From positions 868,001-932,000 of the forward strand of contig NC_054744.1 of assembly GCF_018143015.1 (NCBI RefSeq): a stretch of DNA of 64,000 nt, in the 5' to 3' direction. A program made the translations under genes and the position numbers. The DNA comes from Lytechinus variegatus (Eukaryota; Echinodermata; Echinoidea; Temnopleuroida; Toxopneustidae). Positions within the stretch are counted from its first letter, which is position 1. Each line of letters begins with the position of its first letter. The notes below the pieces were generated by a model, which saw only the letters and a list, made by a program, of their open reading frames with translations, did not search any database and was not told the origin of the DNA. Positions 1,190 to 21,982 of the stretch are shown here, piece after piece.

Positions 1190-1480
1190 GTCTGTAACAT
1201 TGACCATTATAGGACTAATTATAAGAACAAATTCCCACATGAAATAAATACATGTAATATACATTGTAGTTCAACTTGCAATGTCAATGAAAGCACTTAT
1301 CATAATGGAACGTATCGTCACTTGGCTGTTAAAACCTTGTATCTCAAATTTTTCTGAAATTACTTAACTGATAAATGTGAGGTGTAACTCGTAATAACCA
1401 CATCAGTTGCATATCTTTAAAATAAAATGTCAAAATTCATCTTTGTGAAAACCTCTTATCTCATTTTTGGATTTACTGCA
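1190..1480. other. No feature seen
   Basis: AT-rich sequence with no coding or repeat signal I can support. Confidence 0.4.
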
Positions 1481-1486
1481 CATTTG

Positions 1487-1653
1487 TTGCCAATTTGAAA
1501 TCTCCGTAGATATAGTGATCACCAATATTCGGTTTTTTTAAAATTCATAAACTTCTGTTTGTCCAATAATGTTCAAACTAACACCTATCAACTTGTCTGA
1601 TTTTCCTTTTTCCTCTAAAAGCAAGTTTTTATTTGGGTTGGATTCCGCTTTTA
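1487..1653 (+). mobile_element. Fragment of TTAA-type MITE family M1
   Basis: Matches the 3' part of the fuller copy at 11209-11800 (CCAATTTGAAATCTCC..., AACTTGTCTGATTTT, GTTTTTATTTGGGTTGGATTC) and ends near a TTAA. Confidence 0.7.
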
Positions 1654-1841
1654 ATAACTGCAGCAAAGTAATTTTGCTCTAATTTTATATTTTGAGGACT
1701 GCAGGCCTTGATTCCACCACCCAGCACAATTCAAACCACATACATGTGTCCATCGTGCCATTTGAACATGCAAACACACTAGGTCAACAGAATCTACCTT
1801 CCTGTCACTTTCCATTTGAGAATGTTTACTTGCATGTAATA

Positions 1842-2047
1842 TCAGAGCTGCCAACTTGAACAAGATCATTCAGTATTTTAAAAGTAAAAAGAGTCAGTAT
1901 TTTGGTGAGGAAATCAGTATTTCTGAAGAAATACCATAGAACACATAAAAATGAAACTTAGAAATCAGTATTTTGCAAGAAACCATCAGTATTCTTCTCA
2001 TTTTTAAGTACTAAATACTGAAAATCAGTACTAGTTGGCACCTCTGT
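1842..2047. mobile_element. Short MITE with CAGAGSTGCCAACT ends
   Basis: The left end CAGAGCTGCCAACT mirrors the right end AGTTGGCACCTCTG, with repeated CAGTATTTT inside. TAATAT flanks both sides and looks like a target-site duplication. Confidence 0.65.
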
Positions 2048-2049
2048 AA

Positions 2050-2245
2050 TATGTGTGCCTGTGGGGGGGGGGGGTGGGCAGAGGATAGCTAGATTAGGAT
2101 GAAATATATTTTGATTGGGTATGGGTTCGTTTCCTGAATCACAGAGCAATAATAGTTTACATTGTAACCCCCCTCCCCCAAATGAAAAAAAGAAAAGAAA
2201 ACACAGACACACACACACCCATCCCCAACACCCACACACAACACA
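2050..2245. repeat. Poly-G and CA-rich low-complexity tract
   Basis: A G run at about 2059-2070, then an A/C-rich stretch with ACACACACACCC at about 2205-2245. Confidence 0.7.
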
Positions 2246-2277
2246 CACTATATGGAAAATGAAGATGTTCATATAGG

Positions 2278-2770
2278 GAAAGTTCTCCCTGGTTTTACTG
2301 GTTTAAAAAAAAACAGAAAATAAAAGAAATATATGAGGGTTTGAAGAAACATAGCGAAATTTGATATGAATATCTAAAGTTTTGATTCTGTGATGTCATG
2401 TCCCATGTGTTGTATATGTTTGTCTCTTTTAATGGTTCTTGATAAAAGAATGAATCTATTTCATAGAGGCATGTATATTAACATAAGTTTGATGGTATAT
2501 GCACATGGGAATATTCTTCTGAAAAAATTACATTTTATGGAATGTACATTTAAATAACTCGTGACGTCACAGATTCATAATTTCGTTAATTTGGGGTATA
2601 TTTTCTTCAAACTTTCACTCATAGCCAAAAAAAAAAATAGCAAAAATTGTATTCTTTCATTTTCCGAACTTTTAATGTATATACCCGGTAGGTATTTCAC
2701 AACAAAATATAAAAAATGTATTACAGGGTTTAGTATAGGTCAGATATATTTAGTGAATTTGTCCTTTAAT
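2278..2770. mobile_element. Fold-back MITE with CRE-like stems
   Basis: Sequence around 2335-2400 (GTTTGAAGAAA ... GATTCTGTGATGTCA) is the inverse of 2562-2620 (TGACGTCACAGATTC ... TCTTCAAACTTTC). It resembles the layout of family M2 at 15994. Confidence 0.5.
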
Positions 2771-2779
2771 TGCATGTAC

Positions 2780-3285
2780 ATTGTAAAATGGAACCTACAG
2801 AGGTCAGATATAACAAAATCCTCTCATAAAAAGGTGATTTAGCTGGTGTATTTGTATTGCTTTGTTGTTGTTTTTTACCCTGAGTGACTTTGTGAGAAAC
2901 ATGATATAACAAGGTAATTGTAATGTTCTTAAAGTACTTGTTATAGTGAGGTTCACCTGTATTTAGAAAGATCTAATACACCACAAAATGACAAGAGTAT
3001 TTTTGCACAATCTTGGAAAAATGAGAAAATAAGATGTACTTGTACATGTTTCATGAGATATGATTTTTTAATAAGTTGAAACCTTGTTATAACGAGGTCC
3101 TTGGGATTATGAATATTATCTTGTTCTATCAGATTTCTCATATTAGGGTAAATAAAACCAACAAAAACAATCTATAAAGAGCTGGGACCAGCATGAGTAC
3201 CATATTATGTAAGGGGTTTTGATGTATCTGACTGCTTTGTAACGAGGTTCGACTGACTAATAGTATACCACAGTACAATACAATC
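2780..3285. other. No gene; low-level repeat fragments
   Basis: Contains repeated TATAACRAGGT-like words on both strands, perhaps a decayed transposon. No coding signal. Confidence 0.35.
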
Positions 3286-3360
3286 CAATACAATATTTGC
3301 ATTTATATAGCACTCATTACTGGATTAATCGCATCGCTTTATATCATAAACATGATATGT
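3286..3360. mobile_element. Possible SINE/LINE tail fragment
   Basis: ATTTGCATTTATATAGCACTC resembles, in reverse, the AT-rich tails of the SINEs elsewhere in the window. Confidence 0.35.
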
Positions 3361-3427
3361 ACATATACAGTATATACAGTTGAGGCCAGCTCTACTTCGA
3401 GGTAAATAGTATACTATTAACACATGA

Positions 3428-3575
3428 ATGCACATGCGTTAGGTCGGGCGGCTGCATGAACGGTTATTTCGTGGTGCCTAATTATTTTGTGGTTCCTAAC
3501 GAACTCAGCAAGCTTCGTTTGTTGGTCACCATAAAATAATCGTGAGTGCTGCCGCACGCCCTAATGCATGAGCTC
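3428..3575. mobile_element. Hairpin MITE
   Basis: GCACATGCGTTAGGTCGGGCGGC at the left is mirrored by GCCGCACGCCCTAATGCATGAGC at the right, with TTATTTCGTGGTG / CACCATAAAATAA continuing the stem. Confidence 0.6.
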
Positions 3576-3600
3576 AAAATCATGTGTCAATATTTTAATA

Positions 3601-4668
3601 CAAGTGGAATGCCTCTGGCCGTCTCACCTGCATCACGCGGTTCAATATAGCAGCAGTGCTCAGTGTTCAGTGATACATGGTTACTCTTATTTCCCTTTTT
3701 TATGAACTAGACCAATAAACTTACAGAGATATGATGGTTATTCAACAAAAAAACCCAACATGGCCAAAGTTCATTGACCTTACATGACCTTTGACCTTGA
3801 TCATGTGACCTGAAACTCGAACAGGATGTTCAGTGATACTTGATTACTCTTATGTACAAGTTTCATGAATCAGATCCATAAACTTTCAAAGTTATGATGG
3901 TAATTCAACAGATACACCCAATTCGGCCAAAGTTCATTGACCTTGGTCATGTGACCTGAAACACGCACAGGATGTTAAGTGATACTTGATTACTCTAATG
4001 TCCAAGTTTAATGAACTAGACCAATAAACTTTCAAAGTTATGATGGTAATTCAACAGATACCCCCGATTCGGCCAAAGTTCATTGACCCTAAATGACCTT
4101 TGACCTTAATCATGAGACCTGAAACTTGCACAAAATTTTCAGTGATGCTTGATTACTATTATGTCCAAGTTTCATGAATCAGATCCATAAACTTTCAAAG
4201 TTATGATGGGAATTCAACAGATATCCCCAGTTCGGCCAAAGTTCATTGACCCTAAATGACCTTTGACCTTGGTCATGTGACGTGAAACTCAAGCAGGATG
4301 TTCAGTGATACTTGATTAACCTTATGTCCAAGTTTCATGAACTAGGTCCATATATTTTCTAAGTTATGATGACATTTCAAAAACTTAACCTCAGGTTAAG
4401 ATTTCGATGTTGATTCCTCCAACATGGTCTAAGTTCATTGACCCTAAATGACCTTTGACCTTGGTCATGTGACATGAAACTCTAATAGGATGTTCAGTAA
4501 TACTTGATTAACCTTATGGCCAAGTTTTATTAACTAGGTCCATATACTTTCTAAGTTATGACGTCATTTCAAAAACTTAACCTCAGGTTAAGATTTGATG
4601 TTGATGCCGCCGCCGCCGTCGGAAAAGCGGCGCCTATAGTCTCACTTTGCTTCGCAGGTGAGACAAAA
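3601..4668 (+). repeat. Repeat family A, full copy
   Basis: Begins CAAGTGGAATGCCTCTGGCC GTCTCACCTGCATCACG and ends with a GCCGCCGCC(GTC)GGAAAAGCGGCGCC block then GCAGGTGAGACAAAA. The inside is a tandem array of ~130-bp units with TTCATTGACC, TGACCTTTGACC, GTCATGTGACCTGAAACTC and CAAGTTTCATGAACTAG. The terminal GTCTCACCTGC/GCAGGTGAGAC form short inverted ends. The 4558 open frame is a by-product. Confidence 0.85.
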
Positions 4669-4724
4669 CGGGTTGAGTGTATTAATTTTTACCAAAAAGT
4701 GTCTTTTAAAAGGGCAAAAAGCTT

Positions 4725-5573
4725 AAAATCACCGACCCCAGTCCCTGTGTGTTAGTTCAGAGAACTAACACACACCCAAGCTCAACTAACACATATTCAT
4801 GTGATGTGAATCAACCGTTTGCATTGGCTACATTTTTCAACCCGTTTTATAATTCTTACTAACGACTTCTCCAATGTACATGCCAATGTAATTGTATATC
4901 TCATTTGAATGTATATAACTTCCTGATAAAATTTACACCATTTTTTTTTCAAAAATGGGTTGAAAATGGAGACAGTCAGAGCCAGCCAAAGTAAAATTTG
5001 GACAGGCTGCCCCCCCCCACCAAAAGGTACACTTTAGCTAATAATATGCTGGCATAATTCTAAGCAACATTGTATCACATGAATGCCTGTTTCCATTAAT
5101 TTAGGTCATACACCATAACCATTACTTTGATTTATTAGGGAAATTCTAAAATCACCGACCCCAGTCCCTGTGTGTTAGTTCAGAGAACTAACACACACCC
5201 AAGCTCAACTAACACATATTCATGTGATGTGAATCAACCGTTTGCATTGGCTACATTTTTCAACCCGTTTTATAATTCTTACTAACGACTTCTCCAATGT
5301 ACATGCCAATGTAATTGTATATCTCATTTGAATGTATATAACTTCCTGATAAAATTTACACCATTTTTTTTTCAAAAATGGGTTGAAAATGGAGACAGTC
5401 AGAGCCAGCCAAAGTAAAATTTGGACAGGCTGCCCCCCCCCCCCCCACAAAAAGGTACACTTAACTAATAATATGCTGGCATAATTCTAAGCAACATTGT
5501 ATCATATGAATGCCTGTTTCCATTATTTAGGTCATACACCATAACCATTACTTTGATTTATTAGGGAAATTCT
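4725..5573. repeat. Recent 423-bp tandem duplication (two copies)
   Basis: AAAATCACCGACCCCAGTCC starts at 4725 and again at 5148, and the following about 420 bases are nearly identical apart from poly-C length. Each copy holds a hairpin TGTGTGTTAGTTC-aga-GAACTAACACACA. Confidence 0.9.
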
Positions 5574-5607
5574 CAAATCACTGGTGTAACGGTAATCCAA
5601 CCCCCTA

Positions 5608-5623
5608 ACCCCCCCCCCCCCCC
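5608..5623. repeat. Poly-C run
   Basis: A run of C within CCCCCTAACCCCCC..., next to the 423-bp duplication. Confidence 0.8.
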
Positions 5624-5863
5624 TGCAGGTTTTGGGCTTAAGCGCTCTCCAAAATTACAAGCTGTGGAGTTTGGCACAACTTGTCAATGTCTGTATTACG
5701 TTGAGTTGCAAATCAATTTAATTCACCTTTACCTCTATTGGTATAAACTAACCTGGTTTGGTCTTTGGTGCCACCTTTATGTTTGGGTTGCCATTTTCAC
5801 TTAATGTGATATCACACAACTTACCATACATATTCTGACACAATACTGCATTTACATATGTAT

Positions 5864-6463
5864 TGTTATGTGATGATAAGACATATCTCACATATTCAAT
5901 ATTATATCAATACATAATCAATACTTCTACAGGAAGTATACCAGCTCCAACTTTCATTAGAAAGTATTACTCATTCTTCCAGCTAAACTTCTGACGCACA
6001 CATATTTTATGGGTTTCTTATTCACTACATTTCATGTTCTCCCTATAAGGTCAACTCCCCCAATTCAGAGTAAAGTTATGACGTACAGATTGTTTTGGTC
6101 AAGCGTCCAAGGTTGACCAACACCTGTTTGATCGTAAAGAGTCTAGACCAGACCAATATAAAAGGGGTTTACTTCTGAACCCAAATCAGATTACTTCAGA
6201 GAATGCAGATTGATTGTTAGCTTGTTACAGATTACTTTACAGATTGTTCCAGCATACAGACAGCTACAGAAGAGTTTATATTTTATACTGCAGAGTATAG
6301 TCACCATCAGACTTACTCATGTTCCTGTATTATTTGTCATCATCATCACCTTAGTTATCATCTTCAATAAATGTATATATGAACTGTACAGGCTTTGTAT
6401 TGACTCCTTCATTTTAAGTCTGGTTGAAAGTTAAAGTGCAATCGATCCAACCCCAACACAACA
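5864..6463 (+). mobile_element. Solo LTR of an LTR retrotransposon (fossil)
   Basis: The 600-base unit begins TGTTATGT and ends ACACAACA, which are inverse to each other. It is flanked by GTAT on both sides (5860-5863 and 6464-6467). It has a TATA box (TATAAAAG, about 6157) and AATAAA (about 6366), as an LTR should. No internal part or second LTR is nearby. Family unknown; the 4-bp duplication fits several LTR groups. It looks old and is a lone remnant. Confidence 0.65.
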
Positions 6464-6779
6464 GTATGTACAAAACATATATGACAAATATGTGATAAAG
6501 TTTCAGGTATTAAAAGCAACAAGATAGTTTTTGGTAAATTTGAAAACATTTCAAAAACTATTTTCCCCTAAAATTATAGTAATAGATAGTCATCGAGCAG
6601 TAATGGTATGCTCTAAATATCTTTTATTTGATTTTATATAAATCATTTAAAATATTTATTGAATTGGGTTAGGGTTTCTGAACAAATCTATAAAGACATT
6701 GGTAAACAAACTAAACATTGCAGAGGCCATATATAAAAAATTCCTCATCTTTGATGTCTGTTGCATATATATTGTTCAG
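6464..6779. other. No feature seen
   Basis: AT-rich stretch between the solo LTR and exon 1 of gene 3. It may hold the gene 3 promoter, but no motif stands out. Confidence 0.35.
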
Positions 6780-6819
6780 ATGGATGGACCAGGTAGACTG
6801 AGTGATGATGACAGTCTAG
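6780..6819 (+). CDS. Gene 3, exon 1 (unrecognised protein)
   Basis: ATG at 6780 opens MDGPGRLSDDDSL and ends at TAG|GTAAGT, a strong donor, in phase 1. The ATG directly follows TTGTTCAG, so this could also be an internal exon. Splicing to 9146 gives the continuous run DSLEQYLVEHAKRSGKHATK. I do not recognise the family. The exon lies beyond the end of gene 1 on the opposite strand. Confidence 0.38.
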
Positions 6820-6824
6820 GTAAG

Positions 6825-6830
6825 TTTATT
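6825..6830 (-). promoter_or_regulatory. Probable polyadenylation signal of gene 1
   Basis: AATAAA on the minus strand, about 265 bases after the TAG of gene 1. It overlaps the donor side of the plus-strand exon of gene 3 (6780-6819), so the two transcripts would be antisense here. Confidence 0.45.
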
Positions 6831-7095
6831 AGCCTTTCCAATACTGAAAACATGCATTAAAATCATATTTGGTTTCTTCAGTATATTAAAACTATGAGCT
6901 TTGAAGATGCAAAGCTGAATTTCGGAACACCCAATACAAAAAAATGTTTTTGGCTGGCACTCAATTTTCATAAGAATGATGTCAAATTGATAAGTCAATC
7001 TCTTTTCAATAAGATGCAAAACTGGAAAATGCAAAGCTGGTATTTGAAACATTACCCTTTTATACCCTGTCACTAACATTAGTAGAGTTAACCAC

Positions 7096-7595
7096 CTATT
7101 TAGCACTGTGCGTCTTCCCCAGTGCTTTGTTAAGCGACACAACATGGCTCAAACTGTGAGGAGCAGGTGCTCTTCTCCTCCTCATTAGCGGCACGACAGC
7201 TGATGACTGGGATGAAGACAGTCGGGAATAGCCATGCTCCTGGATGCGCAACGACTTGGGTGGCCGTCCTGCATGTAGTCGACTTGCTCCACGTCCCATG
7301 TGGCACCTTCGAGCAGTTGATGTGGGTTGGACACCGATCTTTTTGGAACCTTTCAGGTTCAAATGTCTTACTGCAGCATTTTTTGCTGCCAGACCTCGTT
7401 TCCTAACTGTCATGGCAGCCCCAGAATACTTCCCAAAGGTATGCAGTGCTGATACCAGATGCGTATCTGTCTTGATACCTCTGTAGCTGGCCAGCATGGC
7501 CCTTATGGCGGGTCTATAGAGGTCTGGTGACTGTTTCATCTTGGTGCACAGGTCATCATGCATATTCTGGAATTGTTCTAGGAGCTGGTCATCAT
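7096..7595 (-). CDS. Gene 1, exon 8 (basic C-terminus, stop)
   Basis: The acceptor is CATTTTCCAG| and entry is in phase 1, completing an Asp codon. The stop TAG is at 7098-7096. It encodes DDQLLEQFQNMHDDLCTKM, a helical stretch, then a strongly basic tail: VRKRGLAAKNAAVRHLNL, VQPTSTARR, HAGRPPKSLR (AT-hook-like) and MRRRRAPAPH, a likely nuclear localisation signal. An AATAAA lies on the same strand at 6830-6825, about 270 bases past the stop. Confidence 0.85.
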
Positions 7596-10500
7596 CTGGA
7601 AAATGAAAAGAAATAAAAATGAATGTCAACAAGGAAGAATTGTGTTTGTCACATGACATTGGATTTACAAGGTGTCCAAAAAAATGTGTGACGTATTGTT
7701 GTCTACAGAGAATTGCAGGTCTAAGCTATAATCTTCAGGTCAAAACTGACCTTTATATCTTACATTCTTAATAACATTTATCCATTCAGAATATTCATAC
7801 CATGTAAGTTGTACAACAATTCCAAAAAATAGTAAATTCAAAATTTTTCAACGTAACGAAACAATACAAGCAAAAAGGCATGCAAACAAAGCAAGCCCCC
7901 CCAAAAAAAAAAAATTAACTATGAAAGTATAATTATAAAAAACGTACACTTATGACAGTTTAATGGTACGGCCCCCGGGTACCTTTGATTGTGTTTTCAC
8001 GTGTAAATGGCACTGAAGAAATGCTGCAAATCATCACCTGTAGGTTGACTTTATTATAAGACCGGTACTAAATCCTTGATCATTCATCCATGCAGGCCAG
8101 AATTAGATGAAGTACTTTCTAAACCTAGTAAAATATAAATTTTGATTTAATTTAGCTTTCTATGATTTGGTTTTTAACAATTTCCCTATGGAATTCTTTT
8201 AATCCCCATAGACTTTGAACAGGGACCACCCGAGCCAACAGGTTAAATAATAACCTAGATTCCCATATTTCAAATAATGACATGACCACAATGCCTTTGA
8301 CCCAATTAGATCCCCCAAATCATAGCACAATGGGCCACTTTCTTGATGGAGGCAAAAAAATATTGAAATATCATTTACCAATATTCATAGCCCTGTCAGA
8401 GATCCAATATACCGGTACATGCAAATGAGTCCTGTGACCTTCGCCCTCTGACCCAAAAATACCAGTTAATATTTGTCTTGTCACATTCTACCCTTACGCC
8501 AAGTTACATGTTCATGTCTCATAGTATGTAAAATACTGTACCAGAAATGTTCTTCACAAAATGACCTGTGACCTTTGACCCTGTGATCCTAAACTCAAAA
8601 CAAAGTATCATACCCCTACGATATACTCTCATAACAAGTTTGAAGTAAAACCACCTCACGGTTCTTGAGATATCGACAAAAATAACCCATGACTTTTGTC
8701 CACGTGACCCTAAAATCCAAACAAAGTATTATCCTCCCAGGATATACCCTCATACCAAGTTTGATGTAAAACCACCTTACGGTTCTTGAGATATCAACAA
8801 AAACAAAATGGGATGGACGGACAACCCAAAAACATAATGCCTCTGGCCACTTCTTTGGCATAAAAACTTGAGCATATTCTAAGTTCGTTGACCCTAAATG
8901 ACCTTTTACCTTCATCATGTGACCTGAAAACTCATGCAGGATGTTCAGTGATACTTGATTACCCTTATGTCCAAGTTTCATGAACCTGGTCCAAATACTT
9001 CCTAAGTAATGACGAAATTTCAAAAACTTAACCTTGGTCAAGATTTAAATGTTGACGCCGCCATCGGATAAGCCTTGCCTATCGCCGCATAGAGTCTCTG
9101 CTATGCAGGCGAGACAAAAATTAGATAAACAAAAGGGATTTTTAGAACAGTATTTAGTAGAGCATGCAAAACGGTCTGGCAAACATGCGACTAAAGCCAG
9201 CAAAACGATGATGGAACTATCTGAAAAAAGGTAAGGACCATTGGTGCTGGAAGATGTTTGTGCTGATCTTGTCGAGCCTCGAAGATCAAAGTGGTTCTGA
9301 GCAGCTGCTTGTGCACGCAGACTTGCAACAGCAGGATTGGGATCAATTTGGCTTGTAGGAATAGATTCCATCTCATCTATTACTGGTTCTGCTGGGAAGC
9401 TAGCATCCATGATGGAAATATCTCCTGATACTGAGGGCTGGGTCATTAATCCATCAAAGAACCCTGATGGAACACTACAATTTCCTTTTCATGAAAATTA
9501 TAGGAGAGAGGCCATTAGAGATTATTCATAAAAATAGTATCATATAAACAAGGCAAAAGCTATTTTGTGTCTCGCCCACTTATGAAAAATAACCAGAAAT
9601 AACGTGATTTGTGAGGGCACGCAAGAGAATTATATTGAAACTTCATTGTGAAATGACTGGGATGGAATAACACTTGTCATAAGAGCCTTGCACGTAAACT
9701 TTAATGTTGACCTGAAAATGACCTTTGACCTTACCATGTGACCTGCGAGGGGTTTTCATTTATCTATTTGTTCCTGAGATTAAATTTGCACAAGTTAGTA
9801 GTTTGTGATCAAAAGAAAATATCAAAATTCTGTAAAGTTTTGTGTGCATGCATACCTCAATTAGAATCAAAATACAAAATATGTTGAAGCATTTTTCTGT
9901 GATTTTAAATAAAATTACTAAATTACAATTTAGACAATTGAATTTCATGATTCAGTGAAGTAGTTTTAAATCCCTCAATGATAAGGGAGAAGCATTTTGA
10001 AAACTGTGGATGGATGCATGACAGATGGACAGATGTCACACTGTGGCATTAGATCATCAGGCAACATGTGTATATGTAACATTAAAAAGCCCACAAGGGT
10101 CATAAGTGCCACCTTACCTTGGTTCCCTAGCACCCTAGCATTAGCTCCACATGCAATCCCTCATACTAATCAAAATTATACCTTCTGAACGGCCTTTACA
10201 ATACATATTTCCATAACGCCAACCCTAAACAAAAACCCTACTGCAACACACAACTCATGTTTCAATTTCTTTTTAACTTTGTTGACTTTTCTTTTGTTAC
10301 CACTATAATTATATTGGAAACAATTTGGTATCATAATCAATTATATTACATAACTGTTACAATAGTGGCCAGGAAAAAACAACAACAAACGGCAAATGGG
10401 TTTTCAGATTATAAATATTTTAAAAAATATTCAAATGCATCCAAATCGTTAACCATCACTGCACTGGGCTATTTTGTTCCATAGAAACACTCTTGGCTCC

Positions 10501-13500
10501 AAAGAGGCCGATTGCCACAAAAATTTGCCCGCACATCAACAGTCCCGTTAATAGATGGATTGTGGTAAAGATTTAACGAAAACAACTTCATTTCATTAGT
10601 TACGATAATTTATGCAAATGAGATGCATGGATATTGTTTCTTTAAATAATTTCATAAATTAAGCATCTTAAAAATCATTTGGGTGCCATAAGTATACTAG
10701 AAGACTGGTTAACATTAAAACATGGAAAAATAACTGAAGTATGCTTTCATTCTTATGTATTTTATTGCTTTATGAATTTTTTTATGAATTCTATTGTTTT
10801 TCAATTGTTATGTATTTTATTGTTCTTTTTAGTACTTCATTTCAATCAATATCATGTCGGAATAAATTATTTAAAAAGCCAAAACAGGAAAATATAGTGG
10901 ATTATACCCCCAATTAAAAAAAATCACTTTGCCATTGGTTTTGTACACAAAATGGAAAAAAATAATACTTTTCCGGTATACCTTTGGTCACAAAACGTCA
11001 TGTGACTCTGTAATGGGTGGTCTGATTTTCGCAAACTTGGTGTCAAAATATGCGCAAGACTTCAAAAAAAAAACTCATGAAATTGTGTGGCATGAGGTGC
11101 AGCTGTTTGGAGTACATGTTTAAATTTGTCTGGGGAGGGGGGGGGGGCAGTGCAGTTAAATCATTTTTATTTTTTCGACATAATCAAAGTCTTTGCATGG
11201 TTCTTTAAAGGGGAATCCAGCCTTGGTCATAAAGTGTTGGGAAGGAGAAAAATAAATTAAACAGAATGGTGAAAGTTTGAAAGAAATCGGACAAGTAATA
11301 AGTTATAGCTGCTTTACAATTGAGATCACTAATACTATGTAGATTTCAAATTGGCAACTGAGTAAGTAAATTATGACAAGGGGCAAGGACAACTTTCCCA
11401 TAGGCCATGTACTTTATTATCAGGGATTTGTGGTTTTCTCCTAAGTACCCATTCCCCTGTGGCAGTAATCTAAATATAACCCAGGGAGTATATTGTTTCA
11501 TGTCCTCGTGAAAGAAAAATATAATTTGAAATAAAACTTTTGGGAAAAATGACATTTTAGCCATAATGTGTATTGGAGTACATGGAAGAGTAGTCCTTGC
11601 CTTACATCACTATCACATCCCATATGCGGCCAATTTGAAGTCTCCATTGGTATAGTGATTACCAATATTTACAACTTTTAAAAATTCATAATTTTCTTTT
11701 TGTTTGTCCAATATTGTTCCAACTTCCACCAATCAACTTGTCTGATTTTTCTTTTCCTTATAAAAACAAGTTTTTATTTGGGTTGGATTCCCCTTTAATG
11801 GAAAACCTTACTTTCATGTGTTGTATTTTTCTGTTTTTTAAATAAATATGTTATGCTATTAGTGTATAAATCAAAATTTAAAAATATATTGAACCTCCAA
11901 AAAGGCATCTATCTGAGAAGGGATGTGAGATGAGAATTTAAATCAGACCATCATGCTTACATTATTTACATGTGTGTATCAGCATTTTTGTTTCGTTTAG
12001 TATGGATTCTTGAATACAGAATAGAGGTCTATTCATTCTATTGACATATTTGCATCTTTATCAAAATGCAGTGAAATTGTACAATTAAGATTTGGAATGT
12101 TTCTCAATATGGAATATCACATAAAGAAGTGAATCCAAGCTTGAAATTCCAAATACCATATACATATAAAATTAGATATTGCTTCAAACATTTACCTGTT
12201 GCGATCTTATACAGCAGTAGTCTTGACTGCGGGTCATTGACTGGGACAAAGTTTGTCGAAGAAACATTGAAATGTTTCACCACTGCTGCCTGGTGTTTGC
12301 AGGGGGCTCCAGTCTTCCCAGCATGACAAGAACAGTGTCCAAGTTCCATATCGACATCGTACCCCCTGTCTTGCGAAGTCTGACTTGTTACGATGAACTG
12401 GGAGTCTGAGAGCTATAACCAAAACAAAAGTTAAAGCAATAGTTATACAATTTACACCATTACAATTTACTGCAGCTTGACAATAATTTAATGAACATTT
12501 CTACAATTACTTATTCTACATATTGGGATATAAGCTCTTGACTCAATAATCTTACTTATAATCAAGTAATCAACTTGTCTCCTGACTTTTAAAGTAATGT
12601 TTTCTGATGTTTTTATTATGTTCTTCAAATGTTTGCAGACTATCTTCAGCATCTGGTAGGTTCTTACATAAGTTTTGAAAGCAAAAGGTTTGGGATTAGA
12701 TTTAAAATGTGGAAAACTTGTTAACAAATTTCATATTAAAATCATACATGATATGAAGTATAGGCAAAACCTTCCACACAAAAAACAGGTTTCCAAAACG
12801 ATGAAATCGCTAAACGTACAAGTAACTCAATTGATTTATGTTTAGAAAGTTCAGAAAGCATGCCATTTGATTGTAAGCTGGGTTTGCACCTCTGTTTTGG
12901 GGGTGATTCCTGTTTTTTTTAGGAGGTCTTCTACTTTCATTACCTGTCTGATGTCATGGAGCTTGATTGATTTCTCCTGGGGCATATACCTAGAGGCAAT
13001 CACATTCTGCAGGCGTCCATTGGCTACATCAATCAGCCGTTGTTGGTAGTATTCATCCAGAAAGGTGGACATATAGTCTGCCAGCTGGGGAATACTGAAG
13101 GCCTTTGTCCTTTCCAGGATCTTATCCTTTAGGACACGCATGGCTGCCTCGCAAAAATTGTTGGTGTTATTACCACGCACCTGGAGGTCAAGTCGACAAG
13201 CAATTGCCCACTTCTCCTTCCTCCCATAGTAGCCAGTAAGATGCTCTTTGAATTTGCTGTTAAAGTGAAAAAAGTGGCAATCAGTATACACATAATGTTA
13301 AACATCTCAACTGTTTCTGCATACATATTTGATAAAATCCTAGACAAATTAAATCTTTCTAGTCAAACTCATTTATTTGTTAATCTAAAAGACTATTTGA
13401 AATATATATTTTGAAATCATCTTCTATAAGAAATAATTTATCATTATCGTTGAATTTATCATCATTGGATCTATATTATACATATTGCAATGGTCATAAT

Positions 13501-16500
13501 TTTATGCAGTTTCAAATAGCCCAGGCTATTGAGGGTTAACATACATGTAGACTCTTCTATTATATGGGCATTACATGATAATATAATGGGGGACCCTCTT
13601 CCGTAATCTCAATACATGCATGCTCACTAATAAAGCAATAAAGTTAACTCACTCGGACAGGGTTGTGTCTTGAAGACTCTCCTGGTACAGTTCCTCAAGC
13701 TCCTCCTCAGTACAGGCGTAGATGAGGCGCTTTAGATGTTGGAGGTGATTGGGTCGCTGCTCCTTGGGGATTTGGTTTTTGCCATTCCACAACCATCTCC
13801 ACGTGGCTTGGAGAACATGGAACACGCAAAGGAGTGTCTGACTGGCAGGGAAAACGTGACTGATGGCATTCTGTTCTGCTGCAGAGTCATCGGTCATGAT
13901 GAGAGCTGGCCCTTGGACTCCTCTTCCTCCAAAACACTTCTGGGGAAGGAGAGAGCGGTACAGCTTGAGGGCTGCCTCAATCACCCCCTCTGCTTCACTA
14001 GAGGTGATGAGCACCCCCAGAGGAAGGCCACCTGCACAACTATGCGTCAGCAGCAAAAAGACACTACAGCCGTACCTGTCCATGTTCGATGAGGCATCGA
14101 TGAATACCAGCTCTGAGGCATGTTTCACTTCTTCATGGACCCTCTTCATTAGCGGAGTGCATATAGCCATCACAACTTTGTTGTCGCTTGTTATATCAAG
14201 CGCCATGCACTCTGAGCCCACTTGCGTGTTGTAATGAGAGATGTACGTTCTAAGGCTATGCAGCATCCCCTCACCAGTTGACTCCCCAAACTCTTCTTTA
14301 AATACCTTGCGGTACAATCTGGAAAGAACAAAATATAGTAATCAATTAGTCTAGATGCCAAAATCCAAATCCAAATTCGTTATGATTATTCTGATAGTAC
14401 TTTATTTTCCAGAATGATTGCTGCTATAAAAATTCTTATTCATTATTATTATTATTGTTATTATTATATTATCATGGTTATTATTATTATCATTATTATT
14501 AGTGATACAATTAAATAAAATCAGTATTTGGCAACAAAAAAAGGTACGTTGCTTTCACAAGTACATAATTTGAATATTTAAGCCAAAGTTTCCAAATGCG
14601 AAACTGTGGACATAATCCATTCAAGAATTTCTAAATGGTGAAACATAGGCAGAAGCCAGTCAAAGCTCATACAAGTATGCTTTTTTTCAAGCCAGTGTTC
14701 GAGCAGATTGATTCTTCAAACGTATCCTGCATTTTCTTACAAAATCTGTTTTTCTGTATTTTACCGTCGGTTGGCAACATAACAAGTTTTCTGGGGGCCT
14801 TATTATAATGGAAAGATAATAGTCATGTTAATCTACCGCATTTGAAGATGTAACACATTACACACCACTATATTAACAAACAAACATCTGCAATATATGA
14901 CATGATATGATATCCTAACTTACAGTTTACTGTTGAATTAAAATCCTAATACATTCAAGCAGGGAGAGGTGGTCTAATTTGCATCATAGTCAAGCTGTGC
15001 AATTCATGATTTTTTCTTATTTTTTCACTCTAGTGTACATGGTATGATCAATTTACAATCAAATTCAAATTGTTAATTTGCATAATATGCAAATTATAGT
15101 ATACTGCTTTCCCCATGCTTAAAAATTTTAGGACTTTTTTAGGACTTAAAAATTTTAGGACTTTTAGGAATTTAGTGACGATATCATAACAAGTACATTG
15201 CAATATTCCTGTGGGGTTCTTCGGGTGCCCCAGAAAGAAAATTATTTCAGTAGGTAGGAGAAAACCTACTTTGTATATTAAAGCAGAATATTAATTTTAA
15301 AAGTTAAATGCCATTTATTTGAGGAAAATCTATGAAATAACTGAAATGTGATTGAAAAATGGTTCGAATTGCGGTCCAAGTATCCTTGGATGACAATTTA
15401 AATTCGAAAATAATCATTATTTATGTGCAATTTGCTGATTACGTATTATATGAAATGCGCTATTACTGGGTAACACATATGTGAGGATATGTTAATTTTA
15501 CATAAGCATACATTTAACCATTATTATTGAATTTGGGGAAAATTAATAAAATATTTAAATCAATCATAATTATAATCCAGATTAAAAATCAAAACCAATT
15601 TTGAATTATCCCTTTAAGTATCCCCCCCCCACTTCTTTTCAAATGGCCATTAAAAAGTACCTGCTGACGGTGCGCCCTTCGTACACTGATTTCTTAATGG
15701 AGACAACCATGTCAGCTGGGCAGTTGGTGTTCTTAGAGGCCACACGACGACCTGCATTGGTAGACTCCTTTGCTGGTCTTGTGTTGTGATGGCACCTGTA
15801 TGCTTTCTAGATGAAAGAGAAAAGTATGTGTATTTGCATTTTTCTATAGATTACATGTACCTGATATGAATCCACACTTGGGTGAATTGTGTACATTATG
15901 GTGTCGTGTCTGTTGAATGATGGTTTAGTTTTGAAAAATTCATCAAAATATTATTAAAAATCTCATTTGTGATCTAAAGTTCATGTAAACCTGTATTAAA
16001 GGGGAAGTTCACCCTGACAAAATTTTTATTGCAAAAATAGCAGAAAAAATAATAAAAAATATTGCCAAAGATTTGAGAAAAATACATCAAATAAGTAAAA
16101 AGTTATTAGAATTTCAATTATTTGATTTGTGACATCATATGCGAGCAGCATTCCTACATCTAGCGAATGGTAAAAAATCAATGAAATGTCATTTTCTCAG
16201 AAAATTGAAAATGGTTTTCACTGTACCTTTTGTATATCAATAGACAAATCATTTCACACCCGATCATGAATAGAAAACAATTTTAAGTCATCAGAAACCA
16301 TACAAAATTTGAAATTCATGCATTTTATATATGACGTCACATATCCAAAACTTTTAACTCTAATAACTTTCTTACTCTTTAACTGATTTTCCTCAAACCT
16401 TCACCAATATTTTAAAATATTTTTTCTGCTATTTTTACAACAAAGTTTTCTTCAGGGTGAACTTCCCCTTTAACACTGCATTATGTAGACTTGATTTGTG

Positions 16501-19500
16501 CTCCAATCAAATATTATTTTGGATCATTTTTGACTCCTACAACACAAAAAATCTGAGCAAATTTTGTACACCACAGTGCACTCAGTCTGAAATTTCAGTC
16601 ACCATTGCTGAGATTTGTTATCCTCCCAGAAGTGATATGCACCATGGTGTTTCATTAGACCTGATGATTATGTTTTGTAAGCTTTTAAACAAACATACAA
16701 ATCAATCATCATGTTATTTTCATTTTGTCCAACAGAGCGTCAATAGTCTGAACCGCCGTTCATTTGAAATATTTATGACTCATACCAGTATATCTTTCAA
16801 TTCTATTGTTTACAGATCTATACAGATTGTTTATTGATACAGAGTTACAGATACAGAGATTGTTTACACATACAGATTGTTTATTGATACAGAGTTACTG
16901 TTGGTGAAGATTGTATTTGAGGTAGACCTACGTAACTTAAGATTACCCATCATATTTTTATACTACCCGACTGATTATAAAATATGTCAAATATATTCCT
17001 GTCATGCAGACTTGCAGTATAAAAAAAAAGATTTTTAGCAGTTAAGAAGAATTTGCTAAAGATTTAAAAAAGTATTTTCAAAGATATGCAGACTTTGATT
17101 TTGTCTAATGTGGCTAATTAACCAATTCTTCTTGTAGCATTTACTTGAAACCAAGTTTTTTGCAGTCTACGAGTACGTTCATACCTTAAAAACGATTTTC
17201 ATTCCAACTGAAGGAAATGTTCGCTTCACTCGCCAAGTGGTTGATGAAGCCTCTTGGAAACTGTCCAGCCACTTGCCAAAATCTTGTTTTGAACGCAGAT
17301 CAAGGCGAATGGTTGCAGCAAAATGCACTTCATCACCCTGGGAGAAGTTATCTACGTGGCACGCATGGTAAGTATAGCCCTCAGGTAAAATACTCTGGTG
17401 AGGGAATAAACAAATGATGTCGACATAATTAAAGTCACACACACAGATGAAGCAAATAAGCATACATTAGACTAAATAAAAAAAAAACAATTATAAAAAC
17501 AAGGCAAACACCAAGCGTTGTCTCGTCTGCATATTGCAGTCATGAAGAGAATGTATGTCAAAACTATGCTACATGTATATGACTTCCGAGGCTGTCAGCA
17601 GTTTAGGGGGTGAATTGTGGTTCTGACAGTTTACATATGCAATAATGCTATAGGCCTACTTTATCCCTAGGAAATGAGATAACACTAAGAATGCTGTTAA
17701 TACTATGAAGCTATATGACTGAATAAAAGCCTGCAGGAAATTAAAAAAGAATATAAATACAAAATCAAAAACCTACAAATACATGAGAAATTTAATAAAC
17801 AAAGAAGTTCCATATAAAAGAAGAAATTGCCACTTCCCCTCAATCTCAGGTACAGCAATTGCCCCTCTATGGGAAATAGATCTGCCCATTTGCTATAATA
17901 ATACATGGATGTCTAGACTATTCTACTTTTGCCTATAGGGGTGTAAGTTATGAAAATGTGAAGGGTTATTCATTTAATTTTGACTTGTTCTCATTTCTTT
18001 ATTTCTGCATCAACCTTGTTCAAACTTGGTACAAATGATCCTTGGTTGATACCATGTGTGTGTTCATATTTTTTTGAAGACTTTGTTTAAATCATTTTTT
18101 TTTTGCATCAATATTGTTCAAACTTAAAACACAAAATCAGTAATACAATTTTCTGGTTGATGAAGATGATAATTTCTAAGCTTATTTAGGGGTAAAAAGT
18201 CACTTTTTCTCATTTTGTTATTTCAAGGTCAATTGTTCAAGCTCTCTAGGGGTCAAAAGTTAACTTTTGATACCGGTAGTTTTTTATGTGTATAGTATTC
18301 AAATGTATTCAAACTTGGAACAAATTATCAGTGGGTGGTACCACATATTTGTTAAAGAGGATGGAGAGGTCAAATGTCATCTAGGTGTAAAAATGTCAAA
18401 TGACATATTTTTGCATTAATTTTGCCCAAACTTGGAACAAAATGTGTTATTGAGGATGTAGAGATCAAAGGTCATCTAGGGGTCAAAAGGTCATATTGCA
18501 TGTTTTGTTGATTGCAACATCAGGGAAGACTCATGGTTCATAACCCACCTTATTCAAACAAAGTTTGTAACAGGACAAGTTTTTTAATGTTGAAGAAATT
18601 CTTTGTCATGTCTTATGCAAACCATTAAAAAAGATACATTTTACTTGAAGTTTAGCAGTAAAAAATATCCTGCATTGTGTGAATAGTTGAGTTGTGTCAT
18701 TATTGATGTGATCTAAAAATGTATATCAAAATGGAAACAGTTTAAACCCAATGACTCATTTGTTATAGATATGAGGAGCATTTTGCTTGACTGTGAGAAA
18801 AATCAGTATGGGGGTCGGACATACCCGGTACACTGTCTGAATGCATGTCAACTTTAATCAAGCATAACTCTTCACCAGCATCAGATTCATTGAACTGTCT
18901 TATGTGAAAGACAACTAACCAAACAGTACCGTATGTAAAAAAAATCCAGTTTAGAATGTCTATGTTTTGTGTAACTGATCTTCAAAGGGGGTCGGACGTA
19001 CAGTGTGCAAATATTTTGCACAATGTACGTCCGACCCCTTTAAAGTGTACCTGCATCACAAAAATCACAGAGATTTTGACATGAACTCTAAAAGCATAAA
19101 ACCTGTTTTCGTCTGATGTACGTCCGACCCCTCACATTTTTGCCCATATTTTCTATTCTTCATATTGCAGCCTATTCCTGTCATGGTGTAATGATAACGT
19201 AGGTCACGTGTTATGATATACTAAAAAAAATAAAACACAGCCAACCTGAACACTGCTATCAAATCAAAGGAGATACAGCTCTTAAATGTGTCCGAATGTA
19301 CTTCCGACCTTTATGGAATGACCCTACTACTTGTTATATATAAGAATAATTGTAAAAGAATTTTAAAAGCAATTACTTTCATCTATTAGTTATTTCCCTT
19401 TAAGGATAGCCAAGAATTGTAAAGAACTTTCCAGAATGTCTTTTTATTATGAAGGCCTTGCCTATTTAAAGGCTAAGGAGTTTTATTGTTGAATAGGGAA

Positions 19501-21494
19501 AAGCCAAACATTAGAATTGTATTGGTAGTGGAAATGAACAATAGGCTTAGCTATGTTATTGACACTGTTGATTTCAATGAGGTCATTCAAGAGTGTTCTG
19601 GATTTTGACTGCTCCTGAAAGGAGAAAGTTTTTTAGAAAATGCTAGAACCTTCCTTAATAGTGAATTCTAGAAGGATAGCTGTAATGAGTATATAAAGCT
19701 GGCAGATTCTTCAAGATCATCATCACATCATATGAGAGCAGGAGATCACATCACATCATATTAGATCACTTGATCACCACATCATATGAGATCACTTCAC
19801 CAGATCAGATCAAAGCAGTTTATTTCCACCTGGAATATCTATATTGTGTGGAATTATTTGCCCACCATCAATGAACTGTTTGCAGTTATTTTGAGAGAGA
19901 AATTATCAGTTCTCATCGAGATCATCAACATCATCAACCTGTTCAATGAACACGCTTCAACCCATGGATTGCTGAAATTGACTGTTAATCATCATCAACA
20001 TCGTCTTCACGGCCATTTCAACTTGTTACAGTGACTCTTATTATTCATCGTACTTCAACATCAGTTTCATCATCGCCATCATTGTGAATTTTCGCCAGCC
20101 AACTGGGATCTTATCATTTGGACCATAAAATTGGAATTACACCAGAACTGATTTCAAGAGACGTAAGACTATTTATGCTTTATTAGTTTAAGTACTTATT
20201 TATTCCCTGTAATAAAAAAAGGGAATCAAGTTTAAACTTTATATCTCCCTGCCACCCCTCCATGCCAACATAAGTAGCGCATCTAATTTTGTCTTAAGGA
20301 GAGCAGCAATAGACATTTCTACTTTGAATCAAAGTTTGATCGATGAACAAGCTTCGTCCTACAAGATCGTTGGAATGTTACAAATATTCCTTCTTTCCTG
20401 CCACTGCCAGGTTATGGAATTCCCTACCTCAGGACGTCGTAGACAGCACCTCAGCAAATTCAAGAGTGAGGTGCAACATGTCAGACTATGTTAGTCTGCA
20501 TTTGTATGTAAATATGTAAATATCATACATATGTTTGCTCTTTTTACCACAACTTCAACGCTGGATTCTCAGCAATCAGCATTCAAATCCACAATACAGT
20601 AACTTAGGCCTATATAGGAAGAAGAGTAAACTAAACAGTAGAGGCGCACGGCCAATATTGGAGACTGTCTCTAATGTGGGAGATTATCTCCAATATCAGA
20701 GACTTTTGTAAAGAATTTGGGTATCCAATTTCAGAGACAGTCTCCAGTTTTGGAGTCCAATTTCCTTTGTTTACATTTGCTGCAAAAGGATTACCTTGGC
20801 GGCAAATAAAAATGTGATAAGCAGATTCCTCATGAAAAATTACCACTTTTCACCGTCTACTTTCGTTTTGATAAGGATTTTTGTTGTCAATCACACACAA
20901 AACAAATGGGCTTCTGACCTCAGTGAATCAAAATTTTAGGTGTAAAAAATCATGCTTTTGTTGGTGTTGTTTCTTTTGTCCTTTTGCAAAGCAAGTCTCC
21001 AATGACAAAATGTGGGAGATTGTCTCCCCTATTCATTGGAGAGAGTCTCCCATATATTGGCCGTGCGCCTCTACTGCTAAACTATGACTATGTCTATGTA
21101 TTAAACTAGTCAGCCTTACATATTAGTAGTACTAATATGTAAGGCTGACTAGTTTAATACATAGACAGTCATAGTTTAGCAGTAGTATTTTTAATAGTAT
21201 TAGTACCGTACTAGTAGTAGACTCTACACTACTAACTAGGCAGCCTTCCAATTAATAATAATTCTATGTTCTGTTAGTTTTAGTGCTTAAAAGTGAGGAA
21301 GGCCGCCTGGTTAACTCTTTTCTAGACTAAGTTAAGTTGGAGTCAAATGAGCTGGGCTTATTAAACGTGTCAAGACTTAGTCTTATTTTTATTAGCCTAG
21401 GTAGACAGAAAAGACTTAGATATAGATCTACCTGAATGGCTGCAGGAACTGTTACCCCTTCACCACATTCACAGTTTCTCGATGTAGACGTCAT
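7096..21494 (-). CDS. MULE/FAR1-like transposase-derived protein with SWIM zinc finger, 8 coding exons, 786 aa
   Basis: Coding exons in order are 21432-21494, 17185-17394, 15661-15806, 13653-14318, 12944-13256, 12196-12412, 9239-9484 and 7096-7595. They total 2361 nt, and every junction keeps one frame. Residues 96-120 hold a Cys/His segment (RCHHN...NTNCP) like the FAR1/WRKY-GCM DNA-binding fold. Residues about 140-400 form a MULE DDE core: FIDAS (D214), IMTDD (D283/D284), a LLCVFHVLQATWRWLW block, and TNNFCEA (E398). Residues 493-506 are a SWIM finger, CSC-x8-CKH. The tail is basic, with VQPTSTARR, HAGRPPK (AT-hook-like) and RRRR. From family knowledge, such proteins are mobile MULE transposases or domesticated DNA-binding regulators, nuclear in either case. 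All catalytic and zinc residues are kept and I see no frame break. Large repeat-filled introns and a CpG-rich promoter argue for a settled host gene, but a recently active copy is possible. The N-terminal part may also match what is annotated in invertebrates as CARF-like; I am unsure of that. Confidence 0.82.
7601..8160. other. Last intron of gene 1, 3' part, no feature
   Basis: AT-rich, with a short A-run near 7907. Nothing else recognised. Confidence 0.4.
8400..8867. repeat. Repeat family E (tandem TGACC-containing units)
   Basis: Units repeat with ACTCAAAACAAAGTATCATA..., ATATACTCTCATA..AAGTTTG, and AAAACCACCTCACGGTTCTTGAGATAT, each preceded by TGACC words. It ends with GGACGGACAACC and a family A-like AATGCCTCTGGCC. 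The 8616 open frame is a by-product. Confidence 0.65.
8868..9116 (+). repeat. Repeat family A, 3' part
   Basis: Carries the last array unit, AACCTTGGTCAAGATTTAAATG, GACGCCGCCATCGGATAAG and the end GCAGGCGAGACAAAAA. Confidence 0.8.
9146..9230 (+). CDS. Gene 3, exon 2 (unrecognised protein)
   Basis: The acceptor GGGATTTTTAG| and donor AAAAAG|GTAAGG frame 85 nt encoding EQYLVEHAKRSGKHATKAS then KTMMELSEK, entering in phase 1 and leaving in phase 2. It is basic and probably helical. It starts 30 bases after a repeat family A copy and ends 8 bases from antisense exon 7 of gene 1. I found no convincing third exon, so the gene may continue in a small exon I missed, or this may be a relic. Confidence 0.4.
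9239..9484 (-). CDS. Gene 1, exon 7 (probable; weak donor)
   Basis: The acceptor ATGAAAAG|GA joins exon 6 in phase 1 and reads on as KIATG then NCSVPSGFFDGLMTQPSVSG, a natural continuation for this family. The exon is 246 nt, so including or skipping it keeps the frame. It is acidic and Ala/Ser rich (SFPAEPVIDEMESIP, VASLRAQAAAQNHF). The end at AATG|GTCC is not a consensus donor, so the 3' border is uncertain or the exon may be alternative. Confidence 0.58.
9569..9750 (+). repeat. Repeat family C, 5' part
   Basis: Begins GTCTCGCCCAC and continues CAGAAATAACGTGATTTG, TTTAATGTTGACCTGAAAATG and TGACCTTTGACC (9719-9730). The same text is at 53764. Confidence 0.75.
9751..10440. other. Intron of gene 1, no gene seen
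   Basis: Contains a GATGGATGCATGACAGATGGACAG remnant of a repeat end near 10006. Otherwise AT-rich without signal. Confidence 0.4.
10450..11155. mobile_element. Diverged copy of MITE family M4
   Basis: Shares TGCACTGGGCTATTTTG, TTTATGCAAAT..., TGTCGGAATAAATT and the AATTTGGTGTCAAAATATGCGCAAGACTT-like end with the copies at 37899 and 42300. A poly-G follows at 11137. Confidence 0.55.
11209..11800. mobile_element. MITE family M1 (TTAAAGGGGAATCCA ends)
   Basis: Left end TTTAAAGGGGAATCCAGCC and right end GGGTTGGATTCCCCTTTAA are inverse. TTAA at the borders suggests a TTAA target. No transposase frame. Confidence 0.75.
11801..12195. other. Intron of gene 1, no feature
   Basis: AT-rich intron sequence between the M1 MITE and exon 6. 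Confidence 0.4.
12196..12412 (-). CDS. Gene 1, exon 6 (SWIM zinc finger)
   Basis: The acceptor is TTGGTTATAG| (phase 0) and the donor ACAG|GTAAAT (phase 1). A nearer CTCAG would bring an early stop, so the outer acceptor is chosen. The exon encodes GYDVDMELGHCSCHAGKTGAPCKH in outline: Cys493, Cys495, Cys504 and His506 form CxC-x8-CxH. It continues with the family-typical run AAVVKHFNVSS...LLLYKIATG. Confidence 0.88.
12413..12943. other. Intron of gene 1, no feature
   Basis: AT-rich. The open frame of exon 5 runs on into 12851 but is past the chosen donor. Confidence 0.4.
12944..13256 (-). CDS. Gene 1, exon 5 (third catalytic residue)
   Basis: The acceptor is CTTTAACAG| and the donor CAG|GTAATG, entering in phase 2 and leaving in phase 0. 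It encodes KFKEHLTGYYGRKEKW, then RGNNTNNFCEAAMRVLKDK, where the Glu (E398) sits in the TNNxxE position of the MULE/FAR1 family. A helical region DYMSTFLDEYYQQRL follows. An open frame continues past the donor, but the CAG|GTAATG site and the phase of exon 6 favour this end. Confidence 0.87.
13257..13652. other. Intron of gene 1, no feature
   Basis: AT-rich intron without recognisable repeat. Confidence 0.4.
13653..14318 (-). CDS. Gene 1, exon 4 (MULE DDE core)
   Basis: This is the longest coding exon: 666 nt, acceptor TTCTTTCCAG|, donor GA|GTGAGT, phases 2 to 2. It encodes LVFIDASSNMD with the first catalytic Asp, GLPLGVLITSSEAEG, ALIMTDDSAAEQNAI with the second catalytic Asp, and the FPASQTLLCVFHVLQATWRW block typical of MULE transposases. 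The frame is uninterrupted over 221 full codons, and the antisense open frames over it are shadows. Confidence 0.92.
14319..15660. other. Intron of gene 1 with (ATT)n microsatellite
   Basis: An ATT/ATC-rich microsatellite lies at about 14438-14505, and repeated TTTTAGGACTT words at 15115-15175. Nothing else seen. Confidence 0.5.
15661..15806 (-). CDS. Gene 1, exon 3 (Cys/His DNA-binding segment)
   Basis: The acceptor TCATCTAG| opens in phase 0 and the donor CAG|GTACTT closes in phase 2. The codons give KAYRCHHNTRP and later KNTNCPADMVVSIKK, i.e. Cys96, His97/98 and Cys120 of the protein. The last codon is split (AG|A, Arg) and is completed exactly by the first base of exon 4. Confidence 0.85.
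15994..16475. mobile_element. MITE family M2 (TTAAAGGGGAAGTTCACCCTG ends)
   Basis: Left TTAAAGGGGAAGTTCACCCTG and right CAGGGTGAACTTCCCCTTTAA are perfect inverse ends. The inner stems extend far (AAAAATAGCAGAAAAAATA / TATTTTTTCTGCTATTTTT). TTAA borders. Confidence 0.85.
16476..17184. other. Intron of gene 1 with small direct repeats
   Basis: CAGATTGTTTATTGATACAG occurs twice (about 16823 and 16875). Otherwise AT-rich with no signal. Confidence 0.45.
17185..17394 (-). CDS. Gene 1, exon 2
   Basis: The acceptor is CCCTCACCAG| and the donor AAG|GTATGA, both in phase 0, giving 70 codons. The encoded part runs from SILPEGYTYHACHVDNF to GMKIVFK and contains KWLDSFQEASSTTWRVKRTFP. That pattern (a hydrophobic and aromatic run just before a Cys/His segment) is usual upstream of FAR1-like DNA-binding domains. 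Confidence 0.85.
17395..17985. other. First intron of gene 1, no feature
   Basis: AT-rich with only shadow frames. Confidence 0.4.
17990..18540 (+). repeat. Repeat family D, tandem units
   Basis: Units repeat TTGTTCAAACTTGG.ACAAAT, then TGGTTGATACCA and AGGGGTCAAAAGGTCA. Related text in the opposite sense lies at 44870 and 53490. Confidence 0.65.
18806..19310. mobile_element. GGGGTCGGACGTAC element
   Basis: GGGGTCGGACRTAC occurs twice forward (18811, 18987) and about three times inverted (19026, 19118, and weaker at 19290). The outer copies form inverted ends. Confidence 0.55.
19332..20270 (+). mobile_element. Possible solo LTR (fossil), less certain
   Basis: The unit begins TGTTATAT and ends GCCAACA. 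It has a TATA box (TATATAAAG, about 19690) and an AATAAA (about 20209). No flanking duplication is visible and no second copy exists in the window, so the borders are tentative. It sits in the first intron of gene 1. Confidence 0.35.
20330..20520 (+). pseudogene. LINE reverse transcriptase C-terminal remnant
   Basis: One frame reads RPTRSLECYKYSFFPATARL then WNSLPQDVVDSTSANSR and stops. This is the typical end of non-LTR reverse transcriptases of the CR1/L2/Rex kind (SFFP..ARLWNSLP..VV). Only the last about 60 codons remain, so it is a 5'-truncated relic. Confidence 0.7.
20636..21076. mobile_element. MITE with CAGTAGAGGCGCACGGCC ends
   Basis: Left CAGTAGAGGCGCACGGCCAA is inverse to right TTGGCCGTGCGCCTCTACTG. 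Inside are repeated GGAGACTGTCTC / GGGAGATTATCTCC words. CTAAA flanks both ends (20631-20635, 21077-21081). Confidence 0.85.
21072..21184. repeat. Near-perfect 54-bp-arm palindrome
   Basis: TACTGCTAAACTATGAC ... CTTACATATTAGT, then loop AGT, then the inverse ACTAATATGTAAG ... GTCATAGTTTAGCAGTA. One 2-base difference. The left arm includes the end and flank of the MITE at 20636-21076. Confidence 0.9.
21432..21494 (-). CDS. Gene 1, exon 1 (start codon)
   Basis: The exon encodes 21 residues beginning MTSTSRNCECGEG and ends at CAG|GTAGAT in phase 0. The ATG at 21494 is the first after an in-frame TAG (21545-21543) and has A at -3. Phase 0 matches the acceptor of exon 2 at 17394. The CxC pair may belong to the N-terminal metal-binding part. 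It borders the CpG-rich promoter region. An untranslated leader exon further upstream cannot be excluded. Confidence 0.75.
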
Positions 21495-21982
21495 TATGGC
21501 TACGAGAAGCTTCAAGTGCAGTGATGATCGTAGGCCTAGATACTAAGATAGATCTACTGATCGAAGACTGAAGAGGTAGACGTTGTCGAACTCGAAGTCT
21601 ATACGCTACGGTAGAGTACAGGCTGCTATGCTGCTGCTGCATGTGTGATTTGCAAAGGTGATTTGTATAGCGCGCGCGCGAGCGAGATCGAGATAGCCGA
21701 GGCATTCGTAGACAGATAACGGCCTCCGCTCAAGTCGCTCTTTGGCATTAAATTGGAGAATCTGACGCGTTAGCGGTACGGTAAAAAAACACGCGCGCGG
21801 CCTGCGCCGGGTGCGCGTTTCCGTTTTACACCCTGGCGAAGGCATTATCCGCAAATATAGCTAAAAAGCGACTAGTGAAGAGTCTACACCCGTCGCTGGT
21901 TAGAGAGAGTCCGACACTTGAGACCTTTCGTTTTCTGAGACGAGCCATGTGGACGTACGAGATTTAGGGATTTTGGGAACAC

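Follow-up and report, generated by a model that had tools for sequence, protein, structure and literature searches.

A probable giant Mutator-like DNA transposon with an intron-split transposase gene in the sea urchin Lytechinus variegatus

Mutator-like elements (MULEs) of animals are described, in the available parts of two papers, as encoding a DDE transposase with a zinc finger and as carrying terminal inverted repeats and target duplications of 8–11 bp (PMC6446971, PMC5225508). According to the latter, the gene models of Muta contain introns, as does the gene discussed here, and Muta5 of Aedes exists in identical copies, yet a derivative of it was not moved in an assay. The 322 arthropod MULEs treated in the accessible text of PMC13359780 span 1.4–10.0 kb. 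Of 191 coding MULEs of maize that contain nested insertions, 2 seemed to retain an intact transposase, and in rice 35.9% seemed to do so (PMC3903597, available portion). Our literature search, with Repbase and most subscription journals outside its scope, found, among the papers listed, none on the element reported below or on a MULE of its size, and PMC8277862 and PMC9168764 yielded nothing on size or on sea urchins; the family may already stand in Repbase, and it is here that a claim of novelty is weakest.

The window, i.e. the whole stretch of DNA analyzed, comprises 64,000 nucleotides (C5:868001-932000; positions with the prefix w are window coordinates), and the genome searched amounts to 870 Mb in 33 contigs, designated C1, C2 and so on. 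An initial annotation proposed a MULE/FAR1-like gene with a single frame split into eight exons. A separate splice-site search, run on the minus strand around exon cores chosen from the open reading frames, reproduced this arrangement (w21494-7096) and joined the eight exons into one long frame of 746 aa, i.e. 747 codons including the stop as against the 787 claimed, with the expected in-frame stop upstream of the ATG. All 7 introns of the C5 gene model exhibit the GT-AG dinucleotides, whereas the annotation had excepted one junction; it was right, though, that one junction is doubtful, namely that of exons 7 and 8, because exon 7 has the weakest splice sites in the scoring of the search (acceptor -0.7, donor -2.5), and the predicted 7/8 junction may be wrong. 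With the alternative start of exon 6 (Table 1) the protein has 751 aa; the frame of a sister family at this place, read by eye, favours this variant. The Cys/His-rich stretch of exon 3, also judged by eye, is a possible zinc finger.

The residues D214, D283/D284 and E398 occupy exactly the positions at which they had been annotated, and the CxC-x8-CxH motif of SWIM is present as well, starting at position 488 when the protein is counted in its 746-aa version. The frame is no product of chance: the comparison of the spliced protein with the Pfam profiles placed MULE above its cut-off (E-value 4.8e-8, 33.8 bits against 27.6) and SWIM just below it (8e-4, 19.3 bits against 19.6). No likeness to FAR1 beyond these two domains was found, the FAR1 DNA-binding family being absent among the six Pfam matches up to E=1. 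In a comparison with eight other MULE loci, three of one distant kind (L001-L003, 24% identity) align over positions 214, 283 and 398 as D, D and E; since position 284 is K in these loci, D283 is likely to be the catalytic residue. For one further locus (L005) the alignment is confined to the region around D283, and no match at E<=1e-3 was obtained for the remaining four. In the PDB, the exon 4 frame had no sequence match up to E=10.

Table 1. Positions of the transposon, its ends, the exons of its transposase gene and internal features (window coordinates unless prefixed by C5).
Feature	Position	Strand	Remarks
Part of the MULE transposon within the window	1..21794	- (strand of transposase gene)	likeness to C1 and C3 copies has two common limits
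Right terminal inverted repeat, 80 bp	21715..21794	-	72/80 identical to the left one; also in C1, C3, C7
Left terminal inverted repeat, 80 bp	C5:867132-867211		72/80 identical to the right one
Right copy of 9-bp target duplication, GCGCGGCCT	21795..21803	.	left copy C5:867123-867131; perfect match
Exon 1	21432..21494	-	ATG at 21494; splice-site search
Exon 2	17185..17394	-	splice-site search; also present in C1, C3, C7 copies
Exon 3	15661..15806	-	Cys/His-rich
Exon 4	13653..14318	-	MULE domain with D214 and D283
Exon 5	12944..13256	-	contains E398
Exon 6	12196..12397	-	SWIM CxC-x8-CxH; alternative start 12412
Exon 7	9323..9463	-	weak splice sites at both ends
Exon 8	7096..7595	-	stop and C-terminal tail
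Nested repeat, intron 6	11202..11798	.	same family as the C1-only 597-bp TTAA-flanked insertion at 1328
Point in intron 3	15212..15213	.	C5 lacks ~1,060 bp present in C1, C3, C7
Point in intron 1	19047..19048	.	C5 lacks 108 bp present in C1, C3, C7

The gene lies within a transposon of 22,663 bp (C5:867132-889794), the left end of which falls 868 bases outside the window. The likeness of the C5 copy to those on C1 and on C3 begins and ends at two identical points, exactly where the inverted repeats sit; the search for terminal inverted repeats, which the annotation had proposed as a check, thus found a pair of them (80 bp, 72 identical), a feature of many, though not all, MULE groups. The structure with its conserved DDE/SWIM frame occurs on four chromosomes. 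The exon 4 frame (w13649-14341) has five matches in the genome, four at 100% (C1, C3, C5, C7) and one partial on C13 (338/693 bases at 98%), and exon 8 is found in the same four places at 99–100%, with another fragment on C13 at 94%. Judged by the matches to the ends, the copies on C1, C3 and C7 are ~24.05 kb, 26.24 kb and 24.87 kb long. A target duplication of the size typical of MULEs (8–11 bp) accompanies 3 of the 4 nearly full copies, as a perfect 9-bp repeat within unrelated flanks: besides C5, GCCCCGGAC stands on both sides of the C1 copy and GCCCGGCCC on both sides of the C7 copy. At C3 the flanking 9-mers disagree (CATAGCCAC vs GTCCCGGCC), perhaps through a later rearrangement. Incomplete relatives were found on three other contigs. 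On C9 there is a left end (568 bases at 99%; the piece read comprises 1,769 bases at 97.7% and 70 at 95.7%), and C2 carries two related ends ~8.0 kb apart with flanking 9-mers agreeing in 7 of 9 positions; on neither contig did the genome search match exon 4 or exon 8. For C19 the search gave a single short match to an end, together with an internal piece. The three perfect duplications contain 8, 8 and 9 G+C of 9, and 9-mers with at least 8 G/C make up 0.59% of the window, 0.73% of the C1 stretch and 0.67% of the C3 stretch. By eye, CCGG can be seen in the 9-mers that flank the ends on C9, C2 and C19 and in the one to the right of C3, and not in those of C5 or in the one to the left of C3. 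A preference for insertion into G+C-rich sites is therefore likely, with few sites behind it.

Nine repeat stretches within the element, 3,087 bases in total (13.6%), resemble the neighboring DNA (201 kb sample); all nine are present in C1 and 8 of 9 in C3, hence they travelled with the element. The remainder of the element exhibits no likeness to the DNA of this sample, which is small. Six-frame scans of the element (w1-21797 and the 868 bases preceding the window) recognized no Pfam family except MULE at E<=0.01, and so revealed no second gene. As to the inserts with which the introns had been said to be swollen, one TTAA-type element and other repeats are indeed there, while the LINE relic found no counterpart in these scans. 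Nor is the supposed long stay at this locus supported, as the 9-bp duplication at C5 is perfect, the copies differ by 0.07–0.64% and the repeats are common to other copies.

Several repetitive and compositional features were observed along the way. A tandem array with a ~163-bp unit belongs to the left arm, and its sequence turns up again in the window (places concerned, with the array: 3597-4671, 46220-46854, 49696-50358 and 56419-57212) as well as in the surroundings of the C1 and C3 copies, with up to 44 overlapping matches, as a dispersed satellite-like repeat. Another ~117 bases of the left arm (C5:867321-867437; L037:9320-9437) recur very widely, with 1,971 first-look candidates, 40 of which were scored. 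Over the last 12 kb (w52001-64000) the AT skew rises abruptly, to about +0.11 to +0.12, and the GC skew becomes positive.

Pairwise divergence between the copies (with C7 compared over w10937-19761 only) is 0.07–0.18% in the exons, 0.22–0.50% in the introns, 0.56–0.64% in the left arm and 0–0.33% in the short right arm. The exons are significantly less diverged than the introns between C1 and C3 (p 0.004, with only six exon sites varying), and not significantly so between C5 and C1 (p 0.50, again with few exon sites). Four of the six variable exon sites are synonymous, an excess over an assumed silent share of one quarter (p 0.04), and both nonsynonymous ones fall in the C-terminal tail. Neither an exon indel nor the loss of a splice dinucleotide was found, a comparison that covered all exons of C1 and C3 and exons 2-6 of C7; the C7 copy was read over w10937-19761 and two end pieces, with exons 7 and 8 taken as search matches. 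Changes of 25 bp or more were listed separately, and all of them leave the exons untouched. Peculiar to C1 are an insertion flanked by a TTAA duplication (597 bp, of the family seen at w11202-11798) and the absence of 422 bp at 5011-5432. Peculiar to C3 are insertions of 2,169, 563, 187 and 68 bp, of which that of 563 bp is accompanied by an 8-bp duplication (GATAACAC), and the absence of 603 bp at 18395-18997.

A sister MULE family with three copies (C3:53842303, C6:27493378 and C12:12883009) shares 68% of amino acids with the element in exon 4 and 66% in exon 5, keeps the D, D, E and SWIM residues, and has its exon limits at the same residues in the exons compared (4, 5, 6 and 8). Over 543 aligned codons of these four exons pN is 0.23 and pS, which is saturated, 0.85, hence the protein has been constrained over the longer term; a ratio of the pN/pS type could be defined for exon 8 alone (0.12). 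More distant relatives in this genome cross some of the exon breaks without an intron (e.g. 140-507 on C4, 138-464 on C1 and C6), thus the set of introns has changed over time.

Other MULE-related and unrelated loci deserve a brief mention. At C15:4109676-4114522 an 84% piece of exon 2 (exactly residues 21-92) occurs in mixed order with pieces resembling exon 4 (41%) and exon 8 (56%), perhaps a mosaic or nested MULEs. Two other kinds of MULE possess a single open frame, one of 892 aa in two equal-scoring copies (C4:1418193, C4:3497720) and one of 494 aa in three (C3:36712479, C5:45207371, C15:28645679); both are compact relatives of the intron-rich one. Bindin, an echinoid protein, is represented by four Pfam matches in the genome (best 4e-66) and by none in 14 control genomes, a weak control as those identified are prokaryotes; the matches make a sea urchin the most likely host. 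Two bindin-like places 6.3 Mb apart on C13 (18601949-18603482 and 24947663-24949214), with two matching pieces each, are either a duplication or two assembled alleles.

Taken together, the locus w21494-7096 is very probably a transposase gene, split by introns, that belongs to a giant sea urchin DNA transposon of the Mutator-like kind. The MULE domain, the inverted repeats and the target duplications place the element among the MULEs, and it is not a FAR1-like regulator. The annotation had left the choice between a domesticated regulator and a host-like, intron-rich transposase that is still competent; the intron-rich transposase fits, its competence being probable. A host regulator of the FHY3/FAR1 sort, i.e. 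a former transposase that now serves as a transcription factor at a single, fixed place, would explain the long, intron-rich and constrained frame with its intact residues. It would not explain the inverted repeats, the perfect 9-bp duplications and the four nearly identical copies, and the intact DDE residues and the absence of the FAR1 domain among the Pfam matches up to E=1 also speak against it. The annotation itself regarded many near-identical copies with inverted repeats and target duplications as the mark of a plain mobile element, and such copies exist, though only four are nearly full. Domestication was therefore rejected on the transposon ends, the target duplications and the further copies, and is highly improbable. 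The same low probability attaches to a segmental duplication in which a chromosomal region was copied together with a MULE gene inside it: the length of the unit and the C3 copy without a matching duplication would agree with it, but in C5, C1 and C3 the likeness goes no further than the inverted repeats, and perfect 9-bp duplications with unrelated flanks are found at C5, C1 and C7. It was likewise rejected on ends, duplications and copies.

Does the giant element move itself? It could be non-autonomous and moved in trans by another MULE, for instance by the sister family or by a copy that escaped notice, its own gene being unproductive through mis-splicing of exons 7 and 8. The weak 7/8 junction and the presence of the three-copy sister family in the genome are in line with this, and the example of Muta5 (PMC5225508, available text) teaches that copies may be identical and yet inactive. 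Against it, the exons are unbroken in every copy where they were read and 4 of the 6 exon differences are silent, while the three places of the sister family lack element-like ends among the matches listed, at a likeness visible to blastn. Mobilization in trans is thus unlikely, if less so than the two explanations above. The element itself is probably a young, low-copy MULE of unusual size and autonomous; identical copies alone prove nothing in this respect, and we put autonomy at rather better than even. The young copies suggest recent movement and, indirectly, transposition activity.

If the giant transposon is autonomous, the predicted gene would be transcribed and its seven introns spliced out, the transposase would bind the 80-bp ends, and the DDE core would excise the whole 22.7–26.2 kb unit and insert it into G+C-rich 9-bp targets, which would be doubled through gap repair. 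As the unit is mostly intron and non-coding arm, incoming transposons would mostly miss the code, and therefore the element would stay usable while growing. A tentative extension, for which we see somewhat less than an even chance, is that the eight exons spread over ~20 kb of tolerant DNA buffer the element, so that it absorbs transposons, grows to 26 kb, keeps its enzyme and moves as one unit. If this is true, the intron positions common to the 68%-identical sister would point to an old and stable way of life rather than an accident of one copy. The 22.7–26.2 kb unit has moved recently and kept its frame while further elements keep landing inside, and the natural size limit of cut-and-paste transposition and the role of introns as shock absorbers become testable. 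For annotation there is a warning: a live transposon can resemble an intron-rich, constrained, host-like gene model.

Among known systems, the plant regulators FHY3/FAR1 have MULE ancestry in common with the element (PMC13306707, as far as its available text goes), which unlike them has ends, target duplications, several copies and no match to the FAR1 domain. Teratorn (41–182 kb), one of the giant DNA transposons, resembles the element in moving as DNA despite its great size; according to the accessible part of a review (PMC6431247) it carries ~90 other genes, whereas in the element Pfam recognized only the transposase, and the size of the element exceeds the figure given there for Pack-MULEs. 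The closest likeness is to the animal MULE/MuDR superfamily (Muta of Aedes aegypti, Phantom, Spectre), with which the element shares the DDE transposase, the terminal inverted repeats and target duplications within the range of 8–11 bp. It differs from the animal MULEs compared in its eight exons and in several nested elements that vary between copies, and its 22.7–26.2 kb are over twice the arthropod maximum of 10.0 kb (PMC13359780, available text).
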